Of a stretch of 34,028 nucleotides of DNA, positions 1 through 32,439 are shown in pieces. Below the pieces are notes generated by a model. That model made no database searches. It was not told where the DNA came from and saw only the letters and a list, made by a program, of their open reading frames with translations. Each line of letters starts with the position of its first letter. Within the stretch, counting starts at the first letter, position 1. The stretch lies in assembly GCA_009602725.1 (NCBI GenBank), contig WELB01000108.1, forward strand, positions 341,590 to 375,617, in the 5' to 3' direction. The position numbers were made by a program, and so were the translations under genes. The DNA comes from Spirogloea muscicola (Eukaryota > Streptophyta > Zygnematophyceae > Spirogloeales > Spirogloeaceae).

Positions 1-267
1 GCCGCCGCCGCAGCCGCCGACGCCGCCGCCGGTCTCGGCGCCATGAGCCGCCCCTCCTGGCGCCCGCAGCGCCCGCCCGCCCTCCGGTGCCTGCGCGCCG
101 CCGTGCATGCGAGCCAGTGCCGCTCCCCGACTTTCTCCGCCGCTGCCTAGGTTGCACGACCAGCACCCCGCCGCTGCTGCCCGGGTTGCCCTCTGGGACC
201 TGGCGCCGGGCAGGCCCCGCTGCTGTGCCGTGGAAGCGGGCCAGTGGAAGTTGTTTCGGCACGGAGG
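1..267 (+). promoter_or_regulatory. GC-rich 5' island of the lipase gene with GCC triplet tract
   Basis: Strongly GC-rich leader before the lipase start codon. It opens with an interrupted GCC triplet run at 1-30 and stays GC-rich to about 240. I read it as promoter plus 5' untranslated region. The window edge cuts it, so its upstream limit is unknown. The same arrangement recurs at the other five gene starts. No TATA-like element is evident. Confidence 0.5.
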
Positions 268-3200: not shown

Positions 3201-6200
3201 ACAAAGCTTTATGCTACACTGTTAGCATCAGCAGTTTGCACTCATATCACTGCAACCCATGGCCCTAAGGCTAGGCTACCTACTTCATCCTGTGTATTCA
3301 ACGGCTTTTGTTATTGTTGGCAGGTGGGTGTCAAATGGTGTTGTGGGCTCTCCAGCATTTGCTGCCTTTGACCAAGGTTTGCCAAAGTTGGCTTCTTCCA
3401 CCTTCCTTGACACTCCCACCTGTTTGTCAGCTCTTTGCACACTTGTACCTGGCTTGGGCATCACTGTACGTGGTAGATATCAGAAGCTTTGTTCTGTCAG
3501 CCTGCAGCTTTCCTTTCCATGACCACATTGAGATGTCATGTCTATCTCTGTGGAGGTCAAGGATGTTCAATTAGCACCCTCCCTCTTCACAAGTGCTGTT
3601 TTTCTTTCCAATTTGGTGAGTCCAGGATATGATGTCTTCTTAGGCAACCTCCGCGGTTATGCATCCCGTGAGCATGTGGACAAACGAATTTCAGCACGCA
3701 GGTGAGCCTGTAGTACAGTCCACGCTGTAAGCAGATCTTGAGAACTTGAAAAGTTTTTCTGGGAGGAACTACTCATACAAACTGGACTTGTTATTTGTTT
3801 TCATTGATCTTGCTATACAGCTCTTTGCGGTTGTCTTGGCCATGCTGTAATGTTAAGGTTTGTGGTTGGTGTATTGTGTCTGATGTTGTAGGTACTGGCG
3901 GTATTCCATCAATGAGCATGGGATGCAGGATGTGCCGGCCATGATTGAGCGCATCCATGAGATGAAGGTGGCAGAGCTCAGCAGCTTGCCTGAGTCTCCC
4001 ATGTTTTCATCAGAGGCTGCCTCCCCTTGTGCATCCGCTTTTGATGCGAATGGTCCAGATGGGAGTAGCTCCCTTTCACCATCTGTGAGCAACGAGGAGG
4101 CTCAACCATATAGCATGTCAACAGTAAGCCACAGTCTTGGTGGGGCCGCAATGCTGGTCTACATTGTGACAAGGCGCATACTTGGAAAGCCCCATCGTCT
4201 GTCAAGAATGATACTCCTTTCTCCTGCTGGTGAGCTCCTGTCATTGGTCGCTCTTGCTGCCTGCCGTGTCATGCAGGTTGCTATCAATAGCTTGCTTGAA
4301 ATAGTAGATCTAACGTGAATATATTGTTGATATCCATATGATTATCCAATATGGATAACCAATGTTTTCTTTCTTTCATATTGACCTGATGCTCATGCAG
4401 CTCATGCGGGGTTTACTGCTTACTCAGGAGCTAGTTGTCCTGAATGTTGCCCAGGTTTTCATCAGCAGACTCCATTCCTCTTTGACCTCTTAATGTGGGG
4501 AGTTGTTGGCCCTTTTCCCTTCCTGGACTCTATCATGACTCGGTACATCCCTGGCTTCTACATACCCACCAGAGGGCTCCGATTACTTTTCAACAAGTTG
4601 GCTCAGGACTTCCAGAATCTACCAGCCTTAAGAGCTCTTGTTCAGGTCTTCTTGACAGCTTGCAACCATAAAGCACGTGCATGTGGCATCCATTTGTGCT
4701 TTGAAGCACTAGCCCTCTCAAATGTCCTCTAAGCTTACTTGGAGTTTCCATGCATGTATTGCCTATGGTTGTCATTGTCCTGTGATGCATTCTTACTGCA
4801 ATAGCCGACCTTTGTATGTATGTCATGTGTTCTGATTGCTTCTCTGGCTTATCACAACATGTAGTAAGTAACTGTGGATGTTGCATACTCGTGATTGGAT
4901 CGCAAATTGAGGCTGGCTAGTCTAGCCTGTTTTCACATCCGTTCTCTCATTTCAAGACAGCATTGGCCCTCCAGGTACTTATGAGCAGCTTGCTTGTTGG
5001 CGGCGACAGTTCTGATTGGGTTGGATCCCTTAGGCAACCACATTACAACATGTTTGACATGCCTGGGTTGGCATATAGAGTTGCCAAGCACATGGCTCAA
5101 ATGAAGCATGCTCGTAAATTCGTCTTGTATGACTACCATCACTCCAGCATCAACATGCAGGTGAGTGTTTTCCTTTCAGTATGTTCACGCTTGAGTATAT
5201 GCTTCCCTCTTTATTGTGCTGTTGGCCTTGATGATTTTACGCTGTACTTGACTTGATCGTCCAACATTGCAGTAACTTATACTTCCCACTCCGACTCTGA
5301 GTTGTAACTAGACCTAAATGAACACTCTTAAGAATCTACTGACTTGGTGATATGGTTGGCAGGCATATGGGCAACCGACTCCGCTTGACATTGGTGCTCG
5401 TTACGGACTCATAAATATTCCTGTTGATGTTGTAGTGGGGGGAAAAGATCGTTTGATACCCCCTGCAATGGTCCTTAAGCATTATGAAGCTATGAAGTCC
5501 GCCAATGTTAAGGTGAATGAATGGCTCATTATCTTGTCATGCAACCCTACCGTGCAGTCTTAATAGATATCTGAAGCGTTCTTGCTAATATATAAGCAGA
5601 ATTGTCATGTTGCTGCGTAGTAATATGTGAGTTCCAAAGAATGGCCTATGACAAATTTATACTACGATGCCATCTGTAGATCTAGCCGTCATTTAACGAA
5701 CAAGCTATAAAGAGTACAATTGCTTGGTATGTTGCCCCATAGATTTCCTTCTCATGTGTAGGTTTCAGTCAAGGAATTTGACTATGCACATCTGGACTTC
5801 ACCGTTGCTCACAAAGAGGAGCTCCTTGCATACATCATGGCAAGACTACTGTTGCCATCAAACTCGCACAAAGTGAGGCGAACCCGAAGGTGAGCTGCGG
5901 ACGTGCTTGACTAGCACATGTCAAGAGCATTATCCTGCTTGCTTTGCCGTCTCACCCAGCAGTAGCAATACTCATTCGCTCAATCTCCATTTTGTCAGTG
6001 CCAAGAATACCTTTGGCTCAAAGGCAGGTACAACGACTGGCAATATCGGCTCAGATAAAGTGTACGTATACACCAACTTCCTTGTTGGACTCGAAGTACT
6101 GTAGCAGCCCTCATATGCCATCTCAGATGAGGTTGTTTGTTTGACTCAAAAGGACAGCACAATGATACTTGCGTGGCTTGGCTCAGTGTGATGGAAATGT

Positions 6201-8322: not shown

Positions 8323-11300
8323 CTAAGAAGCTGCTAAACTTGCGACAGGGGGGGCTCTATTATATGTTTTCAACATGTTTGCAAGCTTCTTGGCGTGTTC
8401 CTCAAGGGCATCAAAAGAATCCGCAGTACTCTGACAACCTAGTCTCCATCCCCAGTTACCAGCCTTCATGACAAGAGAAAGGACAGATGTTAGTGAGCCA
8501 GAGCACATAGGACCAAGGATAAAATTGGTCAGTCAGTCATTGTTTCGTCTTTCACTGCAATGCACTGACCTTCACTGCTGGTGTATTCATGCGAGCAGAG
8601 TTGTCAAGGCTCATGATGTCTTGCAAGGAGAAGATGGCAGTCCTTGGCGCGGACTGCACTGCCGCCTTGATAAATTCCCAGCTGATGTCAGCACCCTCCG
8701 CTGCTCTCAAATACTCCAATGTCTGTGGACAAGTGTTGCTCAGACAAGATGTCAATCCATTGGAGCGCAAGACGCTCTTCTCTCCAAGCATCAGTTTTGT
8801 AAAGAAGCAGTTCATGAGCACTGAGCGTCAGGTGCTCGCATTGAGCATACCTGCTTTTTCTCATCTTGCGGAGCCTTCTTCCACCAGCCCAGGACCTGCA
8901 AGTGCAGTGCCATTCATGTCATTGAGTTGTATATGTGACCTTGCCTGAGTGATTGCTTACAAGAAGCTAAATCCAGCTTGTAAGGATAACATTATGCTGA
9001 TCTATTTTGTTCTTGCGCATTGAAGGCCAGTCATGTTCCTCTCACAGCCCCCTTCATGCATAAATTAGAAAGCTAGACCTTGACTTGTGGCTGACTGATT
9101 GTTGAGGGAGGATCACCGTGTCATTGTCGTGTGTCCCTGGGTACACCACCTGGTTTACCTCGTGGTTGTGGGGAATGTGCGGGTTGGAGGGGTCTCCGCC
9201 GAAAGCTGGACAAGCACGTCTATACAAATCAAATACCATTTGTACAGACTGTCTACGCATGTCAACATCCACTTGCTGTTGACAAAAAGGTTTGGCGTGC
9301 GAATTTAATTGTACTATTCTTATTAGGGTTTGATTTTTCTATACTAGGTAACTCTGCAGGCAGTGTGTAAGCAGAGGAGGTGTAAGCCTAGAGGTAGAGT
9401 TACTTACCAAACAGGAGTACAGCCATGCCGGGAGCACCAATGGCCTCCCTGAGCCGCGTGACGTCTTTTGTGATGACGCCCTTCACATGGCAAAAACATG
9501 GTCTAGCTCAGGCGCAGCTTGGGGCGATGCCATGTCTAGACCTACATTGCAGACACAGCTATCCCTCGGGCGTTTCAGATCAGGTGACAGCAACAATCAA
9601 GAGTCATGGCACATCGATGCGTAATCGAAGCAGGCCTGCAGGAGCAGCTGCTTAGAAACAAAGCTCACAAGATCTTCGGCAATGATGTCAACTTTGCCGA
9701 CGGCATCCTTGATTGCAGCAAAGAAGTCCTCCCTTGGGCCAACCTGCGGGTCACAGAGCAGATGACAAGCACCATAAGCATTGCCAGATCCTGCACGCCA
9801 TCAGCATGAGGAGTGAAGTAGTGTCAAGAACCCCCACCACGAGAGACCCACTTATCTTGGCGGTGCTTTACCTTCCATACCCCTGACATAGCTGTCTCAG
9901 CATCTGCAAGCGCCAATGCGATGAGCCACGTCGATTAGCAGCACTCAGCCAGTGGAGTAGCATGAGATAGCAACATTGTTTGAAATGTAGGGGCAGCTAG
10001 TGTGGTACTATGTCCAGCAGATTCAAGCCTAGTGTTTGATTCAGCGGTTACCTGCTGGAATCGACCAGTAGCCCGCCAAGCCGCGGAAGTGGTCAATGCG
10101 GAACTCGTCGTACAGCGTGAAGGCGCGCTTCATGCGCTGCACCCACCACTTGTACCCGTCCTCCTTCATCACCTTCCAATTGTAAAGGGGACTGCCACAT
10201 TGGGGAGCATAAAGCAAGTCCATACTTGTCAAGACAACCGAGAAAGTGACACAGGTGCCATGATACTTGGGTCAAACGAGGGCAGTCAGGCACGCATCTA
10301 AGCTGCAAAAATGCTGGTCTTCTTCAAAGTAGTATCTATGCATAGGGTTGCCCAAGTCCATAAATCCTCAAGAGTAACAGACAATGAAGCGGTAAGGTAT
10401 AATTGATAAAGCTGCGCAGTGGCATGCCACGCCAATTTAGGCGTTGGGACTTGGAAGTTCCTAGTTCCTAGAACTTGCTTTGCAGGGCAAGGCCAGTCCA
10501 ACAGTACATAGCATTGGTATGTCTAGGAACGGAGAAGCTGGAGGAGGCCAGGCCAACCTGCCCCACAGTTGTCCTGTCTCGCTGAAAGCATCTGGAGGGA
10601 CACCGCTTACAAAGGCTGGTGCACCAGTTGCTTCATCCTGGTTCGCAACCAAAAGAGAGACAGCAATCAGAAGCCACATGTGTGATGCGTTGAGCAGACC
10701 CTCTTCATCAGTCCAGATATCTGTGACCACAGATGTCACGACCTTGCTGCTCATGTTTCAATGGGGGCAGGTGATGCCTACAAGCATAAATTGGTCTCGG
10801 TTGGCCCACACGTCCGCACTGTGTCCGCCCACGTAGATGGGCATGTCACCGACAATGCGAATCCCACGCGAATTTGCGTACTTGTGCAGCGACTCCCACT
10901 GTCTCTGGAAGATATATTGCTGCGCCACAAATTCTGTGATCTGCCCAGCACGCACATGAGCTGTTAGCCATTTAGCCAGCAGACAGCAACATGGGCAGGC
11001 ACATGCTGCGCAGCGTATGGAGCCAAATGCTTACAAAGGCAGTGTGGTCCTCCCGGGCCTTCTTGAGGGCCTCAGGCTTGCGGTCACGTAGTTCCTCAGG
11101 CCACTCCCACCAGCAGACGGCGTCGTGAGCGCTGTCGATCGCAGCAAAGAGTGCGGCCTCCTCCAGCCACCCTGCGACATGGAAGGCACGATGCGGAGTG
11201 ACCACCCTGCTAATTAAATGGTCCTCCACAACCCCCTCGATTACGCGTTCAGCTAGGCTTGCAGACATGCAGCACAGTGGTAGCAGAATGAAGAAGTTCC

Positions 11301-12915
11301 AAAAGCATTGGACTATGGCAGCATCCGCCAAGCAGCGGGCCCTTGGCCAGAGAACAATGATGTAGGATACAAGCAGAAATGTGTCAAAGTGTGGAAGATG
11401 AGAACAAGGATGACCATGCAGGCTCAGAATGGCTGTGTAGGGTAGCAAGCATGCACCCGAGATGCTGGGCCTCTTGCGGAAGTCCAGAAAATCCTCCTTG
11501 AGGGGCCCCTCGCTAGACACCAGCTTCTTGGCAGCCTAACCGGCAGCAAGCACACATGTCAAGTGCCATCCCTCTTGCCGGAGGCTGCCGACTTCATCAT
11601 CGATTGCTCCTTATGCTGCGGCACTTGTCGCTGCCGCAAGCAGCTCATGACAACTTCAGCTGGTCCAGTGTTGGCCTGGTATAAGAGCCTCACCTTGGCA
11701 ACAAGGGCGTCCTTGACCTTGGCCACATTGTCGTAGTCCACCCGCTCCACTGCTCTGGACTCACAGTGAGTGCTCATCCCGAATCAGTGCTAGCCTGGCA
11801 ATGCCAACAATTGCAGGTAGCCTCTCAATGACGTCTGGCGAAGCAGCAACGGCAAGCAGTGTTGACAGCTGCGAACCCCATATTGAGATCTTTTACTTTC
11901 GTACTGAAGCAGGCAGAGGGAGATGGGAACACAGGGGTGCCCCACATTGGCGCTGGCAAGTCGGACTCGCTGAGGAGGCCATCCTCCACCAGGAGATCTG
12001 GTGAGATGAGTAGCGTGTTGCCGCAGTTGGCATCCTGGCAAAGCCGCCACAAGAGGTGAGCTGCAGGTGTATGTCTATGCTTGCCAGCACCAGCAAAAGC
12101 GCCCATATGACATGCCAGTCAAGCAGCCTGCTCAGTCTGCCACCTTGGTCGGCTCTCACTTGGCCAGCATATGGCGAGCCATCCTCGCCGGACTTGCGCC
12201 CTGGCGGTACAAGCGGAAGCACCTGCAGCACCCAGCCCAGATTGTTGCTGCACAATCAGCACGCTGCATGCCATGTCCAGCAGTCCCTCGATGAGGGAGC
12301 AAGAGATTGGTATAAGCGAGTCCCCGTGTGCGGCAGCGGTGCGACACCGCTACCCGGTGGCAGTTGCCGCAGCTCAATAGACAGCAACAGCGGTGTGCAC
12401 CAAGGACTCTGTCCTTTGCAGGCTATCAGAGCTACTTCGCATTGCTCGCGGCCTGCTCCTCTGTTGACATCGGGTGCACGTACTGAGCAACATCGACGTT
12501 TGCTCCTCAGATCGAGCATCTGACCACCTCAACCCTGAACCCCGGCAACTGGTAAGCAGCTGGCAGCTGGTAAGGCAGAGCCTTGACGGACCTGCCACAC
12601 ACAGCATTTGGTCGACTGGAGCCAGTCGATGAACTTGAACGCCTCGGGGCCGAGGTCGCCGATCCCGTAAGGCCCGGGGAACGACGTCGGGTGCAGCAGG
12701 ACGCCTGCATTGCGGGCGCGTTGCAGGTGATCAGAGCGGCAGCAGGCTGCGCTAAAGGAGAGCCAGCCGGGTTGCCTCGAGGCAGGCGTACTGGAGCTGC
12801 GAGGCAGCAGAAGGGGCGAACCTGCTCGGCGGCGCGGGAGCACCGGGGCGTCGTCGACGTACTCGGGCCCCAGGTCGTCGCCGACGGTGGGCATGGGCGT
12901 CGCAGCAGCCATCAT
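8323..12915 (-). CDS. DPE1: 4-alpha-glucanotransferase (D-enzyme, GH77), plastid type, 17 exons, about 540 aa
   Basis: Exons in coding order (high to low): 12915-12822, 12704-12592, 12222-12160, 12034-11946, 11754-11694, 11535-11457, 11171-11035, 10940-10782, 10637-10558, 10191-10052, 9903-9872, 9743-9669, 9480-9408, 9205-9117, 8895-8851, 8722-8570, 8463-8323. It transfers glucan segments between maltooligosaccharides and releases glucose; in plants it acts in plastid starch turnover. Family blocks in order: AGVLLHPTSFPGPYGIGDLG, PLVPPGRKSGEDGSPYAG, RIVGDMPIYVG, SGVPPDAFSETGQLWG, FRIDHFRGLAGYW, DIIAEDL, GVITKDV, HNHEVNQVVYPGTHDND, SARMNTPA, GNWGWR. Catalytic residues: nucleophile Asp325 (RIDHFRG), acid/base Glu372 (AEDL), Asp425 (HDND). 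The start is the first of two adjacent ATGs. The N-terminus is acidic and short, so a transit peptide may lie in an unrecognised upstream exon. Confidence 0.92.
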
Positions 12916-13260
12916 CTTGCGGCCGCCGCGGTGGCCCCAGGGCCTGGCTGGGCCCGATCTGCGGCGCAGACTGACGTATGGGGCCGCGGCACAGAGCCGC
13001 CGCTGCGCGGAGCGGCTCGGAGGCGGCGGCGGCGGCGGCGGCGGCGGCGGGCGCGGCGGGTGCTGGCGAGGAGTTCAGGATCGGAATGGCGGCTGGGTGG
13101 CAGGAGAGTGACGGGGGCCACCACCTGGAGGAATGGGCTACGCCGCCCTGCCCCCAGGCCAGGCGCCACGCGGCAGCGCCTCGGCGAAGACGCCGGCCGA
13201 CGCCCCGCCAACGCTCTTGACAGCCCGTTGCCGTCGCGTCGCCGTTGCTTGTGATGGTAC
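12600..13260 (-). promoter_or_regulatory. GC island at the 5' end of DPE1
   Basis: GC-rich block covering DPE1 exons 1 and 2 and about 340 bases upstream. A (GGC)n tract at 13022-13050 reads (GCC)n on the DPE1 coding strand, about 110 bases before the chosen start. Several long overlapping reading frames here are composition artefacts. It probably holds promoter, leader and possibly an unrecognised first exon. Confidence 0.5.
13022..13050. repeat. (GGC)n trinucleotide tract
   Basis: About nine uninterrupted GGC units upstream of the DPE1 start. All three frames are open through it, giving artificial poly-Gly, poly-Ala or poly-Arg frames. Confidence 0.95.
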
Positions 13261-13339
13261 TTGGCCACTCAGGCCCCTCCGTCACTCCATTCACACTCCA
13301 TTTGTTTTTGCCTTCGATTGCCCAAGGTTAAAGAGTGAT

Positions 13340-13610
13340 CCTCCTGAAGAAACAGCGCTTCCAATGGAGGGCGATGGCTGTGCTCCCTGAGCTCCACTGG
13401 AGCCGGCTGTCAACAAACAGCCCTTACAAAGTAAAGCGATGATGGCCGCGGGAGGCCAGCCCAAACGAAAATGGATCTTCCTTAGGGGGCAAGGGCTGTG
13501 AGGGCCAGTCCAGAAGAACAGCGCTTCCAAATTGACTGGTGGCTTTGAGAGGCCAGCCCAAAAGAATGGACAAGGGCCAGTCCAGAAGCAAACAAACGTC
13601 GTCCGAATGG
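13340..13610 (-). mobile_element. Fragments of the retroelement 3' region (hairpin repeat)
   Basis: Contains the hairpin motif at 13541-13575: on the plus strand GGCT..., then GGCCAGCCCAAAAGAATGG, then ACAAGG. The flanking bases ACTGGTGGCT are shared with the copy at 18631-18671, so homology extends beyond the hairpin. Weaker related units lie at 13345-13375, 13440-13475 and 13495-13530, with a shared CAGCGCTTCCAA segment at two of them. Orientation follows the family's LTRG-stop reading frame elsewhere in the window, which lies on the minus strand next to the same motif. Confidence 0.5.
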
Positions 13611-17200: not shown

Positions 17201-17709
17201 CATCCACATCCCTACTGCTGATTGAGCAGCAAAACCTAAGAGTGGTTGCTGTACCAGGGTTTTGTGGGCCTACGACTCACCGATGCTCGTCTCTGAGCTA
17301 GTGTGACAAGATCCTGGCGGATCTTGGCATCCTGCCATAACCTGTGAGATCTTCACAGGTAAGCGTTACAATAGCCCATAGATTCACCTAATGGCATCTG
17401 GGAAGCTGGATTCAATTTCCCAGAAAGCTGCAGCCTGCAGCTTGCCAATGTGCACCTCGAATGCAGTTGCATGGGACCCTGCTCTCGTCATTCTCTGTGA
17501 TAGACGCTCCTACAGCAGAACATGCACCCTGCGCTCTCGCTCTCAGGACGTGCGCTAGCAACCATTGGCAGCTCCATGGTAACGGGGCGGTGGTGAAGCG
17601 GAGCGTGAGTCACCAACCGGCCAGCCGTGTAGACGCATGCGAGACTGGAGAGCATGAGCATAATGATGCCGGAGCTCCTGCCGCGCAGCACGGGCCCCCG
17701 GTTCCTCAT
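14225..17709 (-). CDS. GT31 galactosyltransferase, copy A, 12 exons, about 394 aa
   Basis: Exons in coding order: 17709-17528, 17341-17281, 17093-17044, 16842-16652, 16424-16364, 16067-15995, 15848-15725, 15469-15382, 15226-15176, 15012-14941, 14659-14547, 14343-14225. Predicted type II Golgi protein: short basic N-terminus ([11 protein letters not shown]), signal anchor about residues 13-31 ([19 protein letters not shown]), coiled stem with [12 protein letters not shown] (the DUF4094-type stem of plant GT31), then [11 protein letters not shown]...[12 protein letters not shown]-type metal site VDDDV (240-242), [20 protein letters not shown] and NEDVSLGSW. It should transfer galactose from UDP-Gal in beta linkage, in plants onto arabinogalactan or N-glycans. 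Compared with copy B the middle ([14 protein letters not shown]) and C-terminus diverge; it ends VHESCG without the GEGNDALW tail. The start could be an in-frame ATG 14 codons earlier. Confidence 0.88.
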
Positions 17710-18130
17710 TGCCGGCCTCACGCCCGTTCCGCATGGGCTGCCGCTCATGGCCTGGCCATGGACCAGGCCGCCTGCGGCCGCAGTCTGAGCTGCGAATTCG
17801 CCGCTCTGTGGTCCGACGCACAGCGCAAGCGCGTCTGGAGGTCCATGCACGGTGTGAGAGGCCTCTCCCCAGGCTGCGGCGAGCAGCCAGGAGGACCCCC
17901 CTGTGAGGCCCGAGGATCCGCCACAGGCCAATGGCAGCAATGGGAAGGAGGGTCCGCCTTCCACCCAGCGCCGAGAGAGATGGCAGGCCAAGCTGATAGC
18001 CAGCGGCGGCGTCGAGCGACGGCAGCGGCGGGCGGCGGCGGCGGCGGCGGCGGCGGCGCGGCCGCGTGCGGCTGTCTCGAACACACTGGCTCTCGGGCGG
18101 AGTGGCCAGAGGAGAATGCGGCTGCAGAGC
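17560..18130 (-). promoter_or_regulatory. GC island at the 5' end of GT31 copy A
   Basis: GC-rich block over exon 1 and about 400 bases upstream. It includes a pure (GGC)n tract at 18031-18058, which is (GCC)n on the coding strand, about 320 bases before the start. Long antisense and alternative frames across it are shadows of base composition. Confidence 0.5.
18031..18058. repeat. (GGC)n trinucleotide tract
   Basis: Uninterrupted GGC triplets in the leader of GT31 copy A, nearly the same length as the tract upstream of DPE1. Confidence 0.95.
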
Positions 18131-18148
18131 ACCAGCTTGTCCAATGTA

Positions 18149-18358
18149 AGGCCAGCCGAAAGGAATGTACAAGGTCCAATATGAGCTGATTCCTTCCGTG
18201 GTGAGCAGGAAGGTGCAGGAAGCTCTCCCCATCACTTCGGTGAGTGGAGACGAAAGTGCTCGCCCATTGAGAATAGGGGCTGGAACAACCAGCCCGAAAA
18301 AGAATGAACACTTCGGTGAGTGGGGCTCTCAATCACCTCTTGTCAGCAAGTGCAAATC
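18149..18358 (-). mobile_element. Truncated retroelement 3' end with ORF terminus
   Basis: On the minus strand a short frame ends DLHLLTRGD-stop (18358-18329), matching the ORF terminus of other copies. About 20 bases later comes the hairpin motif (18277-18310): a perfect 7-bp GGGCTGG/CCAGCCC stem with a 5-base loop, followed by the CCTATTCTCAATGG segment shared with 23551-23570. A second weaker hairpin-tail copy lies at 18149-18174. This is a 5'-truncated fragment. Confidence 0.5.
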
Positions 18359-18392
18359 AGGTTTAGTCGAGGGTGAGACTGTCAGAGGAGAA

Positions 18393-18572
18393 CGGCTGCT
18401 GATATTAAAGAATCGGCTGTAAACTGCCAGCCAGATGCATACAGGTGTTCATGACGGAGCCAGAGGCTAGGCAGACAGGGCGCCCTCAATACCCCCGTGT
18501 CAGCAGTAGGAAGTCAGATGAGCTGAGGGGAGGAAGAGCAACCCCGCTGCGCAAGCCAGAGGCTGCTGCAAG
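18393..18572 (-). mobile_element. 180-bp retroelement fragment, near-identical to 33547-33726
   Basis: Aligns without indels to 33547-33726. I count seven differences, all transitions. On the minus strand it reads the family C-terminus (SGVALPPLSSSDFLLLTRGY) and then a TGA stop; the other copy has CGA at that stop. It begins exactly at the ambiguous base at 18573, so the 5' boundary may be an assembly join rather than a natural truncation. Confidence 0.75.
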
Positions 18573-18770: not shown

Positions 18771-18820
18771 CGGAAAGACGTCGCCCTGACGGGTAAGACA
18801 AGCTCGATCTAGCTGCTCAT

Positions 18821-19640: not shown

Positions 19641-19849
19641 TGTGCAACTTCTTCTGTACGGCCACCTTCACGGCATAGCCGGTCTCAGAAGTAATTCGTC
19701 CGGAAGCTGTCGGTTAGGACGACGTCCATGAGGAGCCGCTTGCCACCTCCAGAAACAGCTCTTCCAAATTGATAGGAAGCGCTCCAGAGGACTGGGAGAA
19801 AGAACGCCGGGAAAGGGACTGGGACTGGGACATGGTGTAATTCAATTTC
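19641..19849. other. Short gap before the PIG-A island
   Basis: Contains AGCTCTTCCAAATTGA near 19757-19772, similar to the repeat segment near 13520-13535. This hints at one more small family fragment. No gene is visible. Confidence 0.3.
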
Positions 19850-20170
19850 TGTACGTAGTAGTCCTTTCGGCCGAGAAGGCTGGCAAGGATCCCGCCGTCG
19901 CCCGTCGCAAGTCTGCGGCCCGCCGACGCGCAGTTGTGGGACGGCGGGCCGCCGCGCACGATGCCGCGGCGCTGAGCGATGGCGCCGTGGCGCGCCTGCG
20001 GCGAATGGCGGCCGCGGCTGCGGCGGCGGCGGCGGCCCGCCGCCCCGGCCGACTGCGGCACCGCGTCCTTATGGTGTCCGACTTCTTCTACCCCAACTTT
20101 GGCGGTGTCGAGAACCACATCTACTACCTCTCGCAGTGCCTCCTGCAGCGCGGCCACAAGGTGAGCAGGC
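19850..20170 (+). promoter_or_regulatory. GC island at the 5' end of PIG-A
   Basis: GC-rich block over the leader and first exon of PIG-A. Its triplet tract lies in the coding region itself (20005-20042), where GCG-type codons encode an N-terminal Ala run. Confidence 0.5.
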
Positions 20171-22833
20171 TGTCGCGCCTGCGTGAGCCGAGCGCCGCTC
20201 TGAGCTCGACTTCCCGTCCTCCTTCGACCTTCCTGAGGTGCTTACTGGCGCTGTCTTCGCCAGGTGGTGGTTCTCACCCACGCGTACGGCAACCGCGCCG
20301 GCGTCCGGTACATGACCAATGGCCTGAAGGTGTACTACGTGCCGAGGCTGCCCTTCTACCTGCAGAGCACGCTGCCGACGCTCTTTGGTAGCCTGCCGAT
20401 CGTCCGGGCGGTGCTGGTGCGCGAGAGGATCACACTCCTCCATGGCCACCAGGCCTTCTCTGCCCTGTGCCATGAGGCTATTCTGCACGCCCGCACCATG
20501 GGCTGCGGCGTCACCTTCACGGATCACTCGCTGTACGGCTTCTCCGACCTTGGTAGCATACACATGAACAAGGTTGGTGCCATTTAGGTGCATCACTTCA
20601 CATTCAGCTGCAGTTGCTGGCAGTGCATGAAGCTTGTCAAGGCAGGTGCAGCATCTTAGCGGTTTGTACGGGAGGGGCCACCGACCTCTGGTTCGTGCTG
20701 AATTGGTACTTGAGAAGGTGGCCAGTGCCGAAAGAAAGCACAGAGAGCGATTGAAGCCCTTCTCAGTCTCCCAGATCATCTTGCTCCCATTATCTACTTA
20801 CTGTACCCAAGTCTCTGCAAGAGAGACCTCATACTCCATGACAACTTCAGTGGATATCAATTTCTTTGTTTTGCAGATACTGCAGTTTACTATGTCAGAC
20901 TGTCAGCATGCTATCTGTGTATCTCACACCAGCAAGGAGAATACATCACTCCGCTCTGGCATACCGCCACATAGAGTGTCAGTCATCCCCAATGCTGTTG
21001 ACACAAGCATGTTCCAACCTGATCCGGGACGACAAGATCCTGGTGGCATCACCATCGTCATCATTAGTCGCTTGGTCTACAGGAAGGGGGCCGATTTGCT
21101 GGTTGAGGTCATACCTGAAGTGTGTCGCAGACATGAAGAGGTACAACTCCAAGGTATCAGCTCAATTCACAAGCGGAAATCTTGTTGTCCAGTATTTACA
21201 GCATGTTTTATTGCTCAATAGCTTGATTGTTGATGCAGATAGCTGAGAGGTGGACAACAAGTATGACGTCAACAGTCTAGAAGCCTCCACTCGGCTGGGC
21301 TTGTACCTTTATTGATGAACCAATGGATCGGTACCTGCTTTAAGATGTCTATTTGCAACTTGCAGTTACTCTCATTTTGATAGAATCTTTGGACTTGCAG
21401 ATTCGTTTTGTGGTTGGTGGTGACGGGCCAAAAAGAGTTCGTCTAGAGGAGATGAGAGAGAAGCATGCTTTACAGGAGAAGGTGGAAATGCTGGGAGCGG
21501 TCCCTCACAAAGATGTGCAGGGTGTGCTCACACGCGGCCAGATCTTTCTGAACAGGTGACCTTGGCGTTCATGAGCTCAACCATTAGTGAAACTATGGCC
21601 TTACTGACCAGCAAATACCAGTACATTGATTCTAAAGTAGATTGAGTCTTGATTGCAGCTCTTTGACTGAGGCATTCTGCATAGCTCTCCTTGAGGCAGC
21701 AAGCTGCGGCCTCCTCTGCGTCAGCACACGAGTAGGTGGTGTCCCAGAGGTGAGCTGCACAGCTTCCGCATGCTCACCTGGAGATTTACATTCAACTTGG
21801 CATGTCCATGCTACCAAAGGATCTACAATCTGGACACAGAATGCTTTGCCATCTTATGTGCATTATTGACTGATGACAGGTATTGCCACCGGATATGCTT
21901 GTCCTGGCGGAACCAGCTCCTGCTGACATTGTGCAGGCAATTGAACGCGCAATTGAGCTTTTACCAACCATTGACCCGTGCGCATTGCACAGACGAGTAT
22001 GATGAACTCGTGACTTCTGCTTCTGTTCCGAACACACAAGGACTGTATGGAAGTTGAAGTTGAAGCACTCTCTTTTCTGTATAATATTGTCATTGGAATA
22101 TCAGCATGTACAAGGTCAGCTGCTTTTCATGTTAGCATCAAATCAAACTTGTTGACCACTTCTTGTCATTCGTTTTTGGCAGGTGACAGACATGTACAGC
22201 TGGCAAGACATTGCTGAGAGGACAGAGCTTGTGTACAATCGCATAGCCACTGCACCCTCTGACAATCTGTTGACGCGCTTGTCAAGGTGACTGAAGAAAT
22301 CTTGATCTTGTTTGCTTGGGGTCATGATGGTACCTGTATCCGGAGATCCTCAAGGATGTCTTACAGGGTGGAGAGTGTCGGCACTTTGACGTGCTGTGGT
22401 AAACCTCACTGGACTGGACTCATATTAGCTTGTCTAACACCTGATGGCTATTGCCGTGATCATCAGATACTACTCCTGCGGACCTTGGGCTGGGAAACTC
22501 TTCTGCCTTGTGGTCACCATCAATCACCTTCTATGGCATTTCTTGGAATGGTGGCAGGTACATCTGCAAGGAGTACTTCATGCATTTTATGCAGCTGAAG
22601 TCGATGCTTCACTAACGTATGTGTGTTTGGTCATCAGTCTATGTCTCAGTATATGCTTGGTAAGCACGACATTCCGGGGTGTCTGTGTGGCACACCCTTA
22701 TCGGGATTATCTTCTTGGTCAAGCTTAAGATGCTCTTGGTGGTTAACAGGCTCTGTGTTTGCGCCTGCAGCCTGCTCAATTGATGGACATCTGTCCAGAT
22801 TTTCCGCAAATGACCTGTGGAGTTAGAGCATGA
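20005..22833 (+). CDS. PIGA: GPI-anchor N-acetylglucosaminyltransferase catalytic subunit (PIG-A, GT4), 9 exons, 449 aa
   Basis: Exons: 20005-20160, 20264-20572, 20877-21140, 21401-21555, 21659-21749, 21880-21996, 22183-22286, 22467-22557, 22771-22833; all phases agree. It catalyses the first step of GPI synthesis, UDP-GlcNAc to phosphatidylinositol on the cytosolic ER face, within the GPI-GnT complex. Family marks: [20 protein letters not shown] at the N-terminus, [66 protein letters not shown], and the GT4 E-x7-E site Glu299/Glu307 in [17 protein letters not shown], then [13 protein letters not shown]-terminal membrane helix is predicted near 408-428 ([19 protein letters not shown]). Length matches PIG-A elsewhere. 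I chose the first in-frame ATG; residues 2-10 are an Ala run from a GCG repeat. Divergent from GT31 copy A. Confidence 0.95.
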
Positions 22834-23039
22834 GGCTCGATGGCCTCGATTGCACCGTCTGGGTGTCTGCCATGGCAGCTCGCCAGCTGCATGATCCATA
22901 TAGGATCGCACCCGGCAGCATGCAGGCATTGCTGCAAATGGCCTGGAGGGTCTTCATTTGATGTTTGTGTGCAATGGTCGTGGGAGCACATGAAGATGGC
23001 CGCGAGGAGAAGATGCTAGCCCAATTGCATACAAGGAGG
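22834..23039. other. 3' flank of PIG-A
   Basis: Sequence after the PIG-A stop, probably its 3' untranslated region. An antisense open frame (22823-23587) crosses it into repeat DNA and shows no family features. Confidence 0.4.
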
Positions 23040-23610
23040 TTGCCCAGCTGGTGCTTCCTTTCAGTAGAGGGCGAGGCGATGGCCGTGAGTGGCCAGCCCT
23101 GAGATAAGAATAACAAAGTTCGAAGCGGCCAGAAAGTTAGGCGCGGAGCTCCTCCGGCAGCCAGCAGCGCGAGCTTCCGCGCCGTCGGCGGGCGCCCCCA
23201 GTCGGCCGCCCAGCCTGCAGCGCGGCGAGGAGAGAGCACGCACGGTGCGCATGGTCTGGTTTGAAAGGGGGTCCAATCCGAGCCAATACACCGTTCCACG
23301 GAAACCATGGGGCTACACAAAGCGAAAGCCCGGCAGGAAGAGGAGAGAAGGCGCGCAATGCGCACGAAACGGTAGGGTGGCCTGAAACAAGCCGATACAC
23401 TGTTCTGGCAAAAGCTATTGCTAGGCAGGGGTACCCGCGCCGCCGGCCGGGCGGCGCGGCCCCCTGCCCGGCGCTCCGCCTCCCCCGGGCGCTGACGTTC
23501 GCCGCCCGCTTCTCCCCCCTCGCCAAAGAGAAAAAAGAGAAGAAGGTGCTCGTCCATTGAGAATAGGCGCTGGAAAAGCCAGCCCAAAAATTATCAACAA
23601 AGGACGAGAA
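23040..23610 (-). mobile_element. Cluster of retroelement 3'-tail fragments
   Basis: Carries two copies of the tail segment near 23236-23297 and 23343-23412 (minus strand: TATTGGCT or TATCGGCTTG followed by GGCC or GGACC and a TGCGCA-rich stretch). A full hairpin copy lies at 23541-23603, sharing CATTGAGAATAGG and the stem with 18252-18310. A weaker GGGCTGGCCACTC copy lies at 23080-23100. The whole block sits directly before the GC island of GT31 copy B. Confidence 0.5.
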
Positions 23611-23662
23611 AGGGTCCTCGAGTGGCTACCCGCCTTGGCCACGTGGTGTGCCGCAAGACCCT

Positions 23663-23729
23663 GCCGTCGTCAGGCGCCGACGGCCCGCTCGCCGTCGTCA
23701 GGCGCCGACGGCCCGCTCGCCGTCGTCAG
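23663..23729. repeat. 28-bp tandem repeat, about 2.4 units
   Basis: Two perfect units (23663-23690 and 23691-23718) and a partial third. Each unit begins GCCGTCGTCAGGCGCCGACG and contains the palindrome GGCGCC. The copies are identical, which suggests recent expansion. Confidence 0.95.
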
Positions 23730-23929
23730 CAGCTGCTCCGGTCGCCCAGTCGACCGGGCGGTTGCCCGCGCCCCCCCTCCCCCGCTCATCACCCCCCCAC
23801 CACACTCGCGGTATGCACTTTTCCAGCCGCTCTTCCGTTATCAGCAGCCGCCTTCAGCACTGGAAGCGCCGTCGGTCCACTGAGGTCATCCTCTCGATTA
23901 CCCATTGCCGGCCACCCCGGCCGCCGCGG

Positions 23930-23953
23930 CCGCCGCCGCCGCCGCCGCCGCCG
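23930..23953. repeat. (GCC)n trinucleotide tract
   Basis: Uninterrupted GCC triplets in the leader island of GT31 copy B. Confidence 0.95.
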
Positions 23954-24222
23954 GCCGCGCTCGCCAGAGCCAGGCCGAGGCTGAGCGACCATCTTCCATA
24001 GCCCGACAGCGTCTCCTGCAGCGGGCGAGCGAGCTGCCGGGCCAGCTTGGTGGCCCCCGTCCGGCCCCCGGCTGCAGGCCTGGCTCCGACACCGGCGCGC
24101 GGGAGGCCGGCGCCGGCCCGGCGCGCCCGCCGCATGAGGCGCACTCCCGGCCTGGACACCATGTACGACCCAGGGCGTGGCGGCAGCTGAGGCGGTAGAC
24201 GGCGTGCCGGGGGGGGAGAGGG

Positions 24223-27200
24223 ATGCCGGCCCGGAGCAAGGGAGCGGTGCGATCCATTGGCAAAGTAGCCATCTGGCTGGCCACCGTCTTCGGCGCCACC
24301 TACGTCTGCGGGAGGTGCGGCTCGTGTGCCAGGCCCACATGCACGCCGAGCTCCACCCCAGGGACGGCTTCACTGAGGTCAAGCAGGCTCGGGTCCATCG
24401 ATCGAGTTTTGAGCATTGAGCTTGCAGCAAGCTGAGGGAGCTCCAATGGGTACTCTACAAAGAAAGCCTGAACGCAGCGGAGCCAGAGAGTGAGGATGAG
24501 AATCAGAAGGGTTTGGAAAACAGCTTGCAACCGTCTTGCAACCGTTTGAGGAGCCAGGATGATGCTGGACCGCAGTTCAGCAGGGTTCCTTTCCTCCTAA
24601 GGAGATCTGCAGTGTGCAAGGCTTCAACATCTGATGCTAGACTCGACAAGTTTCAGTCGCTTTCTGTGCTGCTGACATTGACCTACTGCTGACTCTTCCA
24701 AGACTCCACAGACTCCATCGTTCCTGGTCTGGGCCTGGCTAACACTGACCACTTCATCAAACATCAAACTTCTCTGCTCCCAGAGGCTAGGCAATGCTTG
24801 GAGGGAGAAGTCTGCACAAGCAATAGTTGGGTGACAATGCTGCAGTGCATTGCACTCCTGACCGGACTGCGTCTGAAGGTGCAGGATCTGGCACAGCACA
24901 AACCTACAGCCACGTGCCAAGAGCGACTTTGAAGGGCTTGTGGACCACCCTATGAGATCGATCTCCCTTAGAGAAATCCAGGAGCCAGCTGAAAGGAGAT
25001 TAGTATGTATTTTGGCCCTGACTTGCTGGCCGTAGACAAATGGCAATCATCAACTAGTGTCATGTATGCAAGGCTCCTGCAACTCTCAGGCACAGGGCGA
25101 GCATTATGGTTGAGCTGCCTCCTGCTCTGTGCATGGACACAGACACCTTCACATCGAGATCGAAACATTCTCGAGGAGGTTACAGCCACCCACCAAGCCA
25201 TCAGGTTAGGCTTCGGCATCGAAGGTTCTAATTGATGCCAAAGATGGTGACATGCCTCAGGCAGCGAGCATCTGCACACCTTATATCTACTCGTTGACGG
25301 TTGTTCAGTCATTCAGTGATCGACACTGCTCATAGTTCCTTGTAAGAGAGAAGAGAAGGATTGGTCCTGTGGATGACTTGTCAGAGGTTCTTAGGTTCTT
25401 GGCAAGCTTGATCCATCAAACCTGACAGGGCACTTGACAAGAGCATATCATCCCTGGAGATGGAACTTGCGGCTGCTCGTGCTGCTGGGACCAAGGACGG
25501 CACACCCAACAATGCTTTTCTGGGAGGGGCCAGCTTGGGCGGCTCATCAGAGCCTCGACCGAAAGTCCTTGCAGTTATTGGTGTCAACACGGCTTTTAGT
25601 AGTCGGAGGCGAAGAGACTCCCTCCGAGAAACCTGGATGCCAAGAGGTGAGAGGCACTGTTTTCGCAAGTAACCCACCAGTCTTGACGTGCATTTAAGTT
25701 TGAAAGTGTGCAATTTGGCCTCTAGGAGCGATAACACAGGCGAGGTTCTCGTTGTGCTGGGCATGACATGCAGGGGCATGCATGCTTATCTGCTGCTTAA
25801 GCTCTCCTTGAACACTACCATAATGATTCCATCAGGAGAAAGACTGTCGAAACTGGAGAAGGAGAAGGGCATGGTCGTCCGATTCGTCATCGGCCACAGG
25901 TGTGAGCGCAGCCTGCTCTCTAGCAGTGAAGGCCAAATGCTGCAGCTTGTTGTATGTGTGTGAGGTAGAATGCTTCTGTGTATTTTGAAAGCTGCAGCTC
26001 TGACAGCTGGTAACCAATATTTAGATTCTCCGCCTTTAATTCCTGACAAGCTTCTCTCTCACAAGCTGCAGCGCCACGCCTGGCAGCGTGTATGATCAAG
26101 CAATTGACGATGAGGATGCAGAGTATCACGACTTTCTGAGAGTGGTATGCAATCAGGCCAGATGCTGCTACCTTGCACGTTGTAGCAATCTACTAATGGC
26201 ACTGCAGCTTCAATCACACATGGCATGCTCTGCTATCCTACCATTGCTCTGTTTCTGCAGTGCCTTGCATTGGTCGTCAGCTCCGTTGACTACGTATGCG
26301 CTATATTTTGTCCATATTTAGCAATGAACACCATTTGTAGGTCCACGAGGAGAAGTACCTCACACTATCAGCCAAGACAAAGATATATTTTGCTACAGCT
26401 GTCCTCAAGTGGGAGGCTGATTTTTATGTTAAGGTTGACGATGATGTGCACGTTAATCTGGGTGAGTACTGCTGTGATTGTATTCGAGCACACTTGGACC
26501 CAAGATCCAACTCTGTAAATGGTGACTGATAGCACTTCATTGATTGACCAATAAAAACCTGGTCCTGTTGCACCTTACCTTAGCATCAACTCACAAGGTC
26601 ATTGACTTGGCAGTGAGCTACCGCTGCAGAGCTTCTACGCTTCTTCTAGTCACATAAGTACATTTAGCACCTATCACCATCATTAGTCATGGGCTGTATG
26701 CACAATGCGTCTCATGACAGGCATCCTGGGCTCTACACTTGTCAAGCATCGAACAAAGCCACGTGTGTACCTGGGCTGTATGAAGTCAGGACCTGTTCTG
26801 GCTCAGAAGTGAGGCAATCAGACCTATCTAGCTTGATAATGCGTCTTAGAACAACTGACTGTATCTTTTTGCTTATGTTTTGCTTAACCTTATTCATTTC
26901 TCATTATGACGCAATATTTTACTGCCCTCATATTTAGAAGGCATGTGATGTGGTGCTGTGGACCTGCAGAGGAGTAAAGTATGCTGAGCCTGAGTACTGG
27001 AAATTCGGAGAAGAAGGAAACAAGTAAGTCCGTGCTGCGCACATTGCAGACACCATTGACTCACCTTAAACGACGTTCTATTTTGTCTGCAACAGCCCTT
27101 TCCTAAAAATATTGGCATGATGTGTCCCAGGTATTTTCGTCATGCTACTGGACAGATTTATGCAATATCGAAGGACCTTGCGACGTACATCTCCATCAAC

Positions 27201-28640: not shown

Positions 28641-29480
28641 AATAGAGAAGGCGCGCAGTGCGCGTGAAGATGAAAGGGAGGCCAATGCTAGTCTTACATG
28701 TCCTTGTAACGGGGTAATGAGCTGGCTAAGGGGGACACAAAATATCCTCGAGGGCGCACATACATATCTGACAAGCTAAGCTGAGGAGGTAACGTCTTCT
28801 CGGATTCTGTTGGCTGCTTGTGTCACTCCAACTCGAACGAGCTCTTGCAGGAGTAGCTGGTGGCTGTGAAAGAGAGATGGCGCGCCCATAGAAAAAGAGG
28901 GGCTAGCAGAGCCAGCCCAGACAAGAATGGGTAGCCCAAAAGATGGACAAGGTCAAGGGGGAAGCTTCAAAAGACAGTGCAGATCAGTCAACGAAATAAC
29001 GGGTACTAAAGATAGTCACCCAGTACTCCATATTGACAGCCGCAAGTCGGGAATACCCAGCGGCAGCGAAATGAGTCGGCCCGTAGAAGTGGCACTCCCC
29101 ATGGGGCCAAGGCTGTGAAAAGCCAGCCCGAAAAGAATTGACAAAGGTTGGAAGGGGCCAGAATCGCTTAGCAGCTACGAAGGGGCCTGAAGAAGCTATG
29201 CCAGAACTCCGACAGACTAGCTGCCGGGAAACTATCCCCCTGACGAAAGCCGGAGGCCGCAGCGAGAGCACGGCCAGCACGCAGATGCAAGGCTTGGGCC
29301 ATGGATCGCTGAAGGGAGAGCGACAGTCTCATAGAGAGCCGGCTGCAGCCGTCAGGGTCAGCAGGCAGATGATGCAGGCCAAAGGCCGGAGTTGCTGCAG
29401 CGAAGCGGAGCGGAGGGGCTGTGAATGGCCAGCCAGGCAGGATGGGCAAGGGCCGAAAGGCGCCAAACCCACGAAATGAA
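28640..29480 (-). mobile_element. Retroelement copy: degenerate ORF C-terminus, hairpins and tail
   Basis: The minus-strand frame 29449-29168 contains SMRLSLSLQRSM, then LRAGRALAAASG and SLSEF, matching the family C-terminus. Downstream on the same strand come hairpin motifs at 29147-29111 and 28952-28899 and the GGCCTCCCTTTCATCTTCA tail at 28690-28650. Another hairpin unit (29417-29450) precedes the frame. The block appears to be several nested or tandem 3' fragments. It lies just upstream of the island of the aminotransferase gene. Confidence 0.55.
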
Positions 29481-29574
29481 GAGGCTTTTAAGGCGGTGGC
29501 CGTTAGAGGCCGGCCGTTGGTGCCAACAAGAAATGGAGGAATGAATCAAAAGGGTGGTGTTCATGGGGGGGAAG

Positions 29575-29635
29575 GCACGCGGGGCGCATGAAATGAAATG
29601 GAGGCCAATTCAAGCCGACACATTGTTCATAAGGC
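29575..29635 (-). mobile_element. Retroelement 3'-tail fragment
   Basis: On the minus strand this reads TGTGTCGGCTTGAATTGGCC followed by TCCATTTCATTTCATGCGCC, nearly the same as the plus-strand tail at 19580-19633 after the largest copy. It directly abuts the next GC island. Confidence 0.55.
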
Positions 29636-29639
29636 GCAG

Positions 29640-29945
29640 GGAGGAGCTGCCGCCGTCTCCCGCGAGAGGCCGCCGCTGGCGCGCCGTGCCGCGCGGGATG
29701 CGGCTGTTCGTGCCGCTGGCGGAGGCGTTCGACGGCCGGCTGGGCCTCGCGCTCGGCTCCGCCATCCCCTTCCTCATCGCCTACGCGCTCCAGGCCCGCG
29801 GCCGCCGCGCCGTCCACGCCGCCGCCGCATCCACCTCCGCCGCCACCGCCGACGGCGGTGGCGCCGGCGCCGACCCGCGCGCGTACGTCGCTGCCTCTGC
29901 GGGAGCTCTGCGCGCCCGTGGCTCCAGCCGGCACTGTGGCTGAGC
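29640..29945 (+). promoter_or_regulatory. GC island at the 5' end of the aminotransferase gene
   Basis: GC-rich block around the first exon. Its interrupted GCC tract (29818-29862) is coding and gives an Ala/Ser/Thr-rich stretch after the hydrophobic N-terminal segment. Confidence 0.5.
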
Positions 29946-32439
29946 TGAGCCACCATCAGCCTGCGTGTCTGCCGTCTTATGGCAGCCTTCCTCTGTTTCG
30001 GCGGCCGGCAGCAGACGACCGGACGAGGAGGCTGGCCGACGCCCCGTCGCCAACGGATTCCCGGCGCACGCCGATAGGAGCGATGGTCTCGCCCCTGCAG
30101 CCACAGGGAAAGAGCCAGGTTCCGCTCTGGACAGCCACTCCGCTGGTTGGAAGGAGGTGGAGTGCAACAAGTATGACGCAGAAAGCAATCCGGACGGCTG
30201 CATTCAGCTCGGCATCGCTGACAACAAGGTATTGCTTACACACGATCACAGTATGATCGCCACTGAGAGGATTATAGTGGTTGTGTACCTCATGCTTCTC
30301 ATGTGCTGAGATGTGTGACCTTTGGTAGCTTGAGTTAGTGTGGACAGCAGAATGAGGCAGGCTGGGAGGTTGAGGAGGACTCAGCCCGCTGCCGATTTGC
30401 GAGGCAGAAAGGGCTGCTGGCTGCAATGACACTGCTGTCACTCCTCCCAGGTGTCGCTGGACTTGATTGAGAGCCGGTTGCTTGGTCCGTCCTCTGCCTC
30501 CGCCTGGGCTGCTGGGGAAGGCTGCATGAATCTAGCAGAGATGGCCAGCTATCCAACTGACTCTTTCGGAGGAACGGCAATCTTCCGCAAGGTGAATCAT
30601 GTTCACTTGTGCACACTTGCTCATTGGTGATTTCACAATTGTCAATTACCTGCAAGACAATCTTCAGAAGAGCTTTCATGGGTCATTGATATCGCTGCAA
30701 TGACATGATCCTGGTGTTGCTGCACACTCCATGTATACAAACGGCAGCTCCAGGAGTGAGGCAAATGCTAGCCCATCACGTACGTCCGTGTGACAGAGTC
30801 ACGATACTGAGTCCAGTATTTGGTTGCTGTCCTGTAGGCCTTGGCCAGCTTGCTTATGACCGTTGCAGAAGATAGATTCGATGTTGATCCAGAACACATT
30901 GTTGCGGCTTCAGGAGCATCAGCCATCCTTGAGGTCCTAGCCTTTATCCTCGGGCCTTCACCCACTGACGCATTCCTCGTTCCTGCACCCTATTACACCG
31001 GGTGCAGCTTTGCACCTTCTCAAAGAGTGCTTGCTGATTTTCCGTGCAAAGGGTTCCCAACTTTCTGCCATGCATGATCAAGCCCCTTTTGCACCACCCA
31101 CAGAGTGCGCCGATCAAGTCCTTTTTATAGTGCCTCCAGGATATCTTGTGCGATAAGAAAGAGCACAGGTTGCAGTGCAATAGCAAACCTGAGGGTTCCT
31201 GGAGCCCTTCTGTGCTTCAGTGCTTCTGAAATACATCATGAGTCGGAAGTTACGTTTTCTTACGTCTTTGTTAAATTTCCTCAGCTACATTCTGCATTGT
31301 ACACACTGCAGATTTGATCTTGATGTGGCTGGGAGGCCAGGAGTGAAACTTGTTCCAGCCTTCCTGCAAAGTGCTGATGGCTTTTGCATCACACAGCAAA
31401 GCCTTGAAGAGGCTTACAGGACAGCCAGGTTGAATGGCTCCACAGTGAAGGCCATTGCTGTGACATCTCCAGCAAACCCGATCGGAAGGGTGCTGACAGC
31501 AGGTGAGATCACAAATCAAATCACAGCTAATAGGCCTAGCTGCTGTACTGAATCTATTTCACCTGAACTAGTCACAATGTGATACTGCAAGTCTGACACA
31601 CCCACTGTTGTTGTAGATGAGCTCCAAACTCTCCTTGACTTTGCCGAGGACAGGGGGCTTCACATAATCTCAGATGAGATATATGCAGGTATGAAGCAGG
31701 TAGAAGAACATGTTGAAATCATTGTGATATTAGAGTCGTCTATTGCAAAGTAGTTGCAGACTTAGTTGGTGTGAGCATGAGCATGAGCATGACATCCTCT
31801 CAACAACACAGTTTGTACTAAGACAAGCTTGTGACCTATGCAGGCTCTTGCTTTGGCAAGCCCAGCTTTACAAGTGCAGCAGAGTTAGTGCCACCTGAAC
31901 ACCCTCATGCGCAGCATGTGCACATTGTCTATGGTCTTTCTAAGGATCTAGGCCTCCCTGGTTTCCGGGTCGGCGTCCTTTACAGCCGCAACAAGGAGGT
32001 GCTGGCTCGAGCAGCCAAGATGACAAGATTTTGCGCAGTTTCCTCTCCTTGTCAAGCCCTCCTTGCACCCCTTCTCCAGGACCAGACATTCTGGAACGAT
32101 TACTTGAAGGAGTACCATCAGCGACTGTTGGCGCGCTACCAGATCGTTGTTGAGGCCCTCAACAAGCTGGGAGTGGGTTACGTGGAGGCCAATGCAGGCT
32201 TCTTCGTCTTTGTCTATTTAAGACCATTCCTTGTGACAAGTGATCAGGCTGGTGAGGAGGCCTTTTTCGAGCGGTTACTCTATGATTTAGGCCTCTTCTT
32301 GAATCCAGGAGGGGCCTGGCATTGCAATGAGCCAGGTTGGTTCAGGCTGTGTTTTGCTGCTGTTGATGAGGCAACTCTCAAAGTTGCCATGCGTAGGCTG
32401 CAACAGCTTGTGGCGCACAGGAATGGCAGGCGCCGGTAG
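29698..32439 (+). CDS. ACC-synthase-like PLP aminotransferase, 7 exons, about 521 aa
   Basis: Exons: 29698-29882, 30012-30228, 30451-30591, 30838-31001, 31312-31502, 31617-31688, 31844-32439. The acceptor of exon 2 could be three bases later. Family marks: NKYDAESNPDGCIQLG, LDLIESRL, AASGASAILEVLAF, VPAPYYTGFDLD, VTSPANPIG, IISDEIYAG, the PLP-lysine signature YGLSKDLGLPGFRVG (Lys357), and EPGWFRLCFA with Arg491 for the substrate carboxylate. Plant ACC synthase turns S-adenosylmethionine into ACC, the ethylene precursor; relatives are plain transaminases. Here the position equal to the conserved Glu of the GLAEN motif is Asp132 (IADN), so ACC synthase activity is doubtful. The N-terminal 80 or so residues include a hydrophobic segment (GLALGSAIPFLIAYALQ) and are absent from typical plant enzymes, suggesting a membrane anchor or targeting signal. 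Confidence 0.9.

Follow-up and report, generated by a model that had tools for sequence, protein, structure and literature searches.

CCG triplet tracts in the GC-rich islands at gene starts of Spirogloea muscicola

In rice, CCG repeats occur at a density of 731 per Mb in 5′ UTRs, compared with 218 in exons, 74 in introns and 86 genome-wide, and the same survey gives AAG in place of CCG for Arabidopsis (Lawson and Zhang, 2006; PMC1431726). Near the transcription starts of plants and fungi, the coding strand holds more C than G (Fujimori, 2005; PMC555766). In the charophyte alga Klebsormidium nitens, CG methylation is described in the bodies of active genes, and promoters are described as lacking it (PMC5890265). 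A literature search for CCG repeats and GC content in streptophytes returned no report, which does not prove that none has been published.

Here we analyse CCG tracts at gene starts of the alga Spirogloea muscicola, beginning with a window, by which we mean the whole stretch of 34,028 nucleotides at positions 341590–375617 of contig C108 in a 153 Mb assembly. An initial annotation of its letters had proposed that every gene start in this stretch lies in a GC island carrying a GCC or GCG tract. On the evidence given below, we assign a probability of roughly 0.6 to the reading that these tracts are ordinary CCG microsatellites residing in CpG islands at gene starts, for which no function of the repeat is needed. 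The best-supported part of the analysis is that CpG has decayed outside the islands and hardly at all within them, a pattern that the initial annotation had overlooked. CCG enrichment and CpG-island-like starts occur together in a genome with three homeologous copies, which makes candidate causes separable by comparing the copies.

Triplet tracts and GC islands of the window

Pfam domains identify six genes in the window: a lipase (plus strand), a GH77 protein (minus), a galactosyltransferase (minus), PIG-A (plus), a second galactosyltransferase with DUF4094 (plus) and an aminotransferase (plus). In a 500-base profile, GC rises from a background of about 0.45–0.50 to 0.65–0.75 at each gene start, and the island bounds given below are approximations taken from this profile. 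All six tracts were found where the initial annotation had placed them; five reach four to nine perfect units, and the one at positions 1–30 is imperfect. The annotation's assignment of GCC to the coding strand at five genes and GCG at PIG-A agrees with the gene strands taken from Pfam.

Gene 1, an alpha/beta-hydrolase lipase, has an imperfect GCC tract at its 5′ end, at positions 1..31 on the plus strand, with longest perfect runs of 3 and 3 units. This tract lies directly 3′ of an assembly gap spanning 1,156 N or more, the opposite edge of which is a long (GGC)n run. The reading frame of gene 1 is open throughout the tract, and the gap obscures both the length of the tract and its place within the gene. 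Ahead of gene 2, which encodes a GH77 4-alpha-glucanotransferase, a (GCC)9 tract on the coding strand spans positions 13018..13059 (minus strand) within an island at 12500..13400. The start of this gene was taken as the ATG at 12915, the first to follow a stop, which places the perfect run of 9 units (at 13022) about 105 bases upstream. At gene 3 (Galactosyl_T), a (GCC)9 run on the coding strand and its interrupted neighbours lie at 18003..18072 of the minus strand, with the perfect run of 9 units at 18031 and an island at 17500..18500.

The start codon of PIG-A (ATG at 20005) and its alanine run of GCG, GCC and GCT codons occupy positions 20005..20042 of the plus strand, where the longest perfect run has 5 units (at 20020) and the island extends over 19750..20600. 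Near the start of gene 5 (Galactosyl_T with DUF4094), a (GCC)8 tract spans 23909..23958 on the plus strand (perfect run of 8 units at 23929), in an island at 23000..24500 that also holds a perfect 28-base tandem repeat of 2.4 copies at 23663–23729. The GCC tract of gene 6, a class I/II aminotransferase, is alanine-rich and probably coding; it lies in exon 1 at 29796..29862 (plus strand, ATG at 29698), has a longest perfect run of 4 units at 29817 and is surrounded by an island at 29250..30400. Of the proposal that four tracts are in leaders and two in coding sequence, the leader position held for gene 2 and the coding position for PIG-A and likely for gene 6. The gene 1 tract, with its open frame at a gap edge, fits either position, and the start codons of genes 3 and 5 could not be fixed.

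Two candidate promoter signals were rejected. A mirrored order of G-rich then C-rich tracts, considered as a mark of divergent promoters, is seen before gene 1 and in some samples centred on tracts, and the reverse order also occurs. Recurrent k-mers at gene starts, considered as a possible core promoter element, derive from a dispersed repeat that is present in both orientations. This repeat of about 65 bases has a perfect 7-bp hairpin (DNA fold z of −2.9) and often lies upstream of gene starts. It occurs in the window at 18248–18312 and 23537–23599, both on the minus strand, and, among other places, at sampled loci L021, L023, L026–L028, L047, L061, L064, L065, L082 and L083. Exact matches to a 19-base segment of it number 1,850 in the genome, compared with 0 for a reversed control. 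A search of the window against Rfam gave no match.

Abundance, location and length of the tracts

CCG is the only triplet class with a run of at least 4 perfect units anywhere in the window, and all five of its runs are inside GC islands. No CCG run of at least 4 units with GC-poor flanks was found in the 28,975 bases of the window outside islands or in 53,626 bases of its homeologs, and random loci yielded one in 37,691 bases. The islands of the window and sampled loci (64,592 bases, with homeologous copies counted apart) contain 95 such runs. An order-1 Markov model predicts 1.1 and an order-2 model 1.65; this excess of about 60-fold over order-2 composition excludes chance as the source of the runs. 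An order-5 model, in which the repeat words are already included, predicts 61.6 runs, few of them long. Four other kinds of 12-base GC-only repeat are present in islands 0 to 2 times each, versus 95 for CCG. Overlapping matches across the genome number 23,649 for (GCC)6, 1,716 for (GCA)6 and 170 for the reversed control (ACG)6, making CCG by far the most frequent of these three classes.

The link to gene starts was evaluated at 48 loci anchored on N-terminal Ras, UQ_con, proteasome and DnaJ domains, where the anchors are domain starts and not proven start codons. These comprise 17 of 19 Ras matches (model position ≤9, with those on contigs C51 and C197 left out), all 3 UQ_con matches (model position 1), all 8 proteasome matches (model position ≤4) and, by hand count, 20 of 46 DnaJ matches (model position ≤5, one per apparent copy set). 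The Ras match at L029 is weak, and L074 ends at a contig end. Forty of the 48 loci were readable, defined as having fewer than 300 N. Within 1.5 kb around the conserved N-terminal domain, with transcription starts unmapped, a 300-base stretch with GC of at least 0.60 is present in 40/40 readable loci and one with GC of at least 0.65 in 39/40. A CCG tract is present in 26/40, compared with 4 of 31 random 1.5-kb pieces, of which 17 reach GC of 0.60 and 14 reach 0.65. Of the 20 random loci, three consisted of N throughout; the analysis retained 31 of 40 half-pieces, some of which surely include gene starts.

When groups of similar sequence are scored by any copy, GC reaches 0.60 in 30/30 and 0.65 in 29/30 and a tract is present in 24/30. 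This count uses the best of several copies, to the advantage of the anchored set; when a single locus stands for each group, a tract is present in 18.3/26 on average. Among readable groups, 20/26 have a tract of at least 4 units in at least one copy between −1000 and +500 of the domain. Grouping by BLAST merged two unrelated pairs of sets via common repeats, and hand grouping gives 27/35 with a tract. Tracts are not equally common away from starts, and CCG dominance together with enrichment near gene starts is of the type known from grasses. The proposed link between tracts and starts extends genome-wide in this sampling, although as a tendency and not as a rule for every gene, as evident by the 14 of 40 readable loci and 6 of 30 groups that lack one.

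Sampling on the tracts themselves gave a matching picture: for 13 plus-strand tracts taken at intervals through the first part of contig C1, flank GC with repeats masked is at least 0.60 in 11, and the remaining two have values of 0.50 and 0.59. Random islands hold 4 tracts per 9,549 bases and start-anchored islands hold 35 per 23,625 bases. Because the random islands are poorer in tracts, the island state is not the whole explanation of the tracts.

At the anchored loci, 41 of 58 tracts fall between −750 and −125 of the conserved domain, mostly without an established reading frame. For tracts at least 125 bases upstream of the domain, 12 groups read C-rich on the coding strand, 1 reads G-rich and 2 are mixed (sign test, p = 0.003), and the tracts between −125 and 0, where coding runs begin, divide into 5 C-rich and 9 G-rich. 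Coding-strand GC skew upstream of the domains is −0.04 to −0.10 in bins from −750 to −125. With tracts removed, the mean upstream skew is −0.038 and is negative in 18/26 groups (Wilcoxon, p = 0.043). Around these domain-anchored starts, the coding strand carries more C than G, in the manner of plant transcription starts.

The homeologous stretches of the window lie on contigs C307 and C16 (roughly 87% identity among the three copies; 88–94% per aligned block). In copies A/B/C, the longest pure runs are 9/4/5 at gene 2, 9/10/5 at gene 3, 5/7/9 at PIG-A, 8/8/none at gene 5 and 4/no aligned copy/4 at gene 6, where the copy C values for genes 2 and 5 are doubtful owing to N joins at and beside the respective tracts, and gene 1 was excluded for its gap. 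Tract sites are mostly common to the copies and run lengths differ at three of five genes, which argues for drifting microsatellites rather than a fixed signal.

One alternative is that the tracts are selected promoter elements, acting in nucleosome exclusion or as a binding site. Their strong localisation and upstream strand preference are in its favour, and a kept element also fits the mostly common sites and the 8 units found in two copies of gene 5. However, the absence of a tract from 14 readable loci and the length variation among copies at genes 2, 3 and PIG-A argue against such a role, which we consider unlikely.

Run lengths must be read with the assembly in mind. Six of eight single-N joins are inside islands, which hold an 18% share of bases (p = 0.0007), at loci not picked for starts or tracts. 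A CCG run lies within 60 bases of 10 of 32 gap edges, a count covering all loci, some of them picked for tracts. Because gaps and CCG tracts coincide, the lengths given here carry uncertainty; in assemblies of this kind, neither repeat lengths nor gaps at gene starts can be relied upon, which affects gene models. Long poly-T or poly-A runs beside or nearly beside N gaps (L006 from 1393, L015 up to 672 and L050 from about 84) are probably assembly artefacts. In the C307 copy (L003), an insertion of about 4 kb, partly N, lies upstream of the gene 2 tract (10752 to 14772 of that stretch) and contains a repeat also present at 18388–18572 and 33536–33775 of the window. At the start of gene 6, about 108 bases (window 29695–29802) are identical to L009, including third codon positions, and the two gene copies otherwise differ by about 11–14%.

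CpG decay and substitution equilibrium

Islands, which were picked by GC and not by CpG, have GC of 0.68–0.69 and a CpG observed/expected ratio of 0.91–0.99, compared with a CpG ratio of 0.49–0.69 outside them; in the window the ratio is 0.97 in islands and 0.49 elsewhere. High GC and a high CpG ratio extend together across several hundred bases, as in CpG-island promoters.

Substitutions among the three copies were polarised by majority at one locus (four alignment blocks, 224 island CpGs), excluding columns near gaps, crowded columns and three-state sites. Ancestral CpG had changed to TpG or CpA in one copy at 117/412 sites outside islands and at 23/224 inside, and GpC control transitions number 96/1,254 outside and 19/298 inside. 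Relative to control sites, CpG loss is 1.3–1.6-fold in islands and 3–4-fold in the rest of the aligned sequence. By sequence context, C to T changes outside islands have frequencies of 0.172 for CG (105/612), 0.109 for CCG (11/101), 0.060 for CWG (85/1414) and 0.055 for CHH (233/4214), and those in islands 0.057 for CG (21/366), 6/170 for CWG and 0.043 for CHH (18/419). This decay pattern matches the footprint expected if methylation were mainly at CG outside islands and absent within them, and the islands appear to be CpG-unmethylated because CpG decay is far lower inside than outside.

The genome encodes cytosine methyltransferase domains, including matches with corresponding parts on contigs C256, C168 and C234. 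Fragments of PF00145 (Cytosine-5 methyltransferase) are present at 71 places on many contigs, mostly covering model positions 39–163, and look as if they were borne by mobile elements, as has been reported for charophyte retrotransposons (PMC5890265). The profile search of this assembly, which had no positive control, gave no match to the CXXC reader PF02008.

At non-CpG sites, the substitution equilibrium (GC*) derived from the three copies is 0.536 in islands (95% CI 0.435–0.622, a wide interval; 22 W>S and 55 S>W changes) and 0.561 outside (0.531–0.595), where the island value becomes 0.556 or 0.536 depending on slightly different filters. The present GC of islands at these sites is 0.742, far above GC*, and substitution alone would lower it.

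These values bear on biased repair at open promoters, a cause put forward in the initial annotation, or GC-biased gene conversion, either of which might drive island GC and the triplets. The islands are located at gene starts, where plant crossovers concentrate. The comparable GC peak of vertebrates has been shaped by recombination history (PMC11323403). However, because island GC* is no higher than that outside, ongoing GC-biased conversion is unsupported; there is no W>S excess relative to the surroundings, and parallel losses would inflate apparent W>S changes, so the real GC* may be lower still. We regard this explanation as rather improbable. A variant of it would place the conversion earlier, before the three copies separated.

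Indels were also considered as a source of island GC and rejected. The alignable islands have 14 insertions (35 bases, GC 0.66) and 11 deletions (45 bases, GC 0.78), which are too few to decide but give no sign of net GC gain and, if anything, speak against repeat-driven GC replacement. As a separate observation, copies B and C are about 0.92–0.95 identical at 3242–6150 and 21815–22800 of the window, where copy A is 0.84–0.91 identical, unlike in neighbouring stretches, which suggests patchy gene conversion or a mosaic history among the three copies.

Origin of the tracts and comparison with known systems

Selection on the protein, for alanine runs, or on codon usage is very unlikely to have made the tracts. 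The tract of PIG-A is coding and that of gene 6 probably so, and the PIG-A run aligns without gaps across all three copies, as expected within a protein. However, the gene 2 tract precedes its start codon, and the 41 tracts located well upstream of conserved domains mostly lack an established frame. Least probable of all is that the tracts mark R-loop-prone DNA, as the initial annotation also proposed and as in GC-skewed vertebrate islands, since the starts are indeed GC-rich and skewed but R-loops prefer a G-rich non-template strand downstream of the start, and here the coding strand is C-rich upstream of domains and 5/6 window tracts read GCC in the sense direction.

If the tracts are ordinary microsatellites, as we favour, their origin could be as follows. 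Judging from the mutations, gene bodies would be CG-methylated and islands unmethylated. The CCG unit contains a CpG, so that a run in methylated DNA would be broken by deamination, and a run in an unmethylated, GC-rich island could arise and lengthen by slippage. The plant-like C bias of the coding strand, a skew presumably linked to transcription, would accompany the upstream runs that read GCC. A run falling within a reading frame would become an alanine run, and the presence of one repeat class both ahead of and within coding sequence fits the earlier suggestion that the coding runs are side effects. Methylation alone does not account for the preference for period-3 repeats over other GC-only repeats in non-coding leaders; hairpin-assisted slippage is a possible cause of this preference.

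A broader picture can be drawn from the sequence patterns, though we think it unlikely to be correct as a whole. This alga, near the land plants, might have true CpG-island promoters at nearly all genes, with unmethylated islands set in CG-methylated gene space, where substitution erodes island GC and the birth and growth of CCG repeats partly replace what is lost.

The nearest counterparts differ in what they share with these islands. As in the 5′ UTRs of rice, CCG ranks first among the triplet classes and clusters at gene starts; unlike in the rice survey, the tracts here are confined almost wholly to sharply bounded islands in which CpG is not depleted, and a UTR position is inferred (PMC1431726). 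The skew has the same sign as that reported for plant and fungal transcription starts but is weaker, and is seen around domain-anchored starts instead of mapped ones (PMC555766). A methylome like that reported for Klebsormidium nitens, where methylation was measured, would leave the decay footprint that here points to methylation through mutations (PMC5890265). Vertebrate CpG-island promoters likewise have GC and CpG peaks at starts and CpG decay elsewhere, but their GC skew is opposite to that found here, and methylation in this alga is judged from mutations. Island GC here exceeds its equilibrium under substitution; a decay described for apes and rodents would imply the same there (PMC11323403). 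The survival of repeats in islands that apparently escape methylation would resemble what is already known from grasses and vertebrates.
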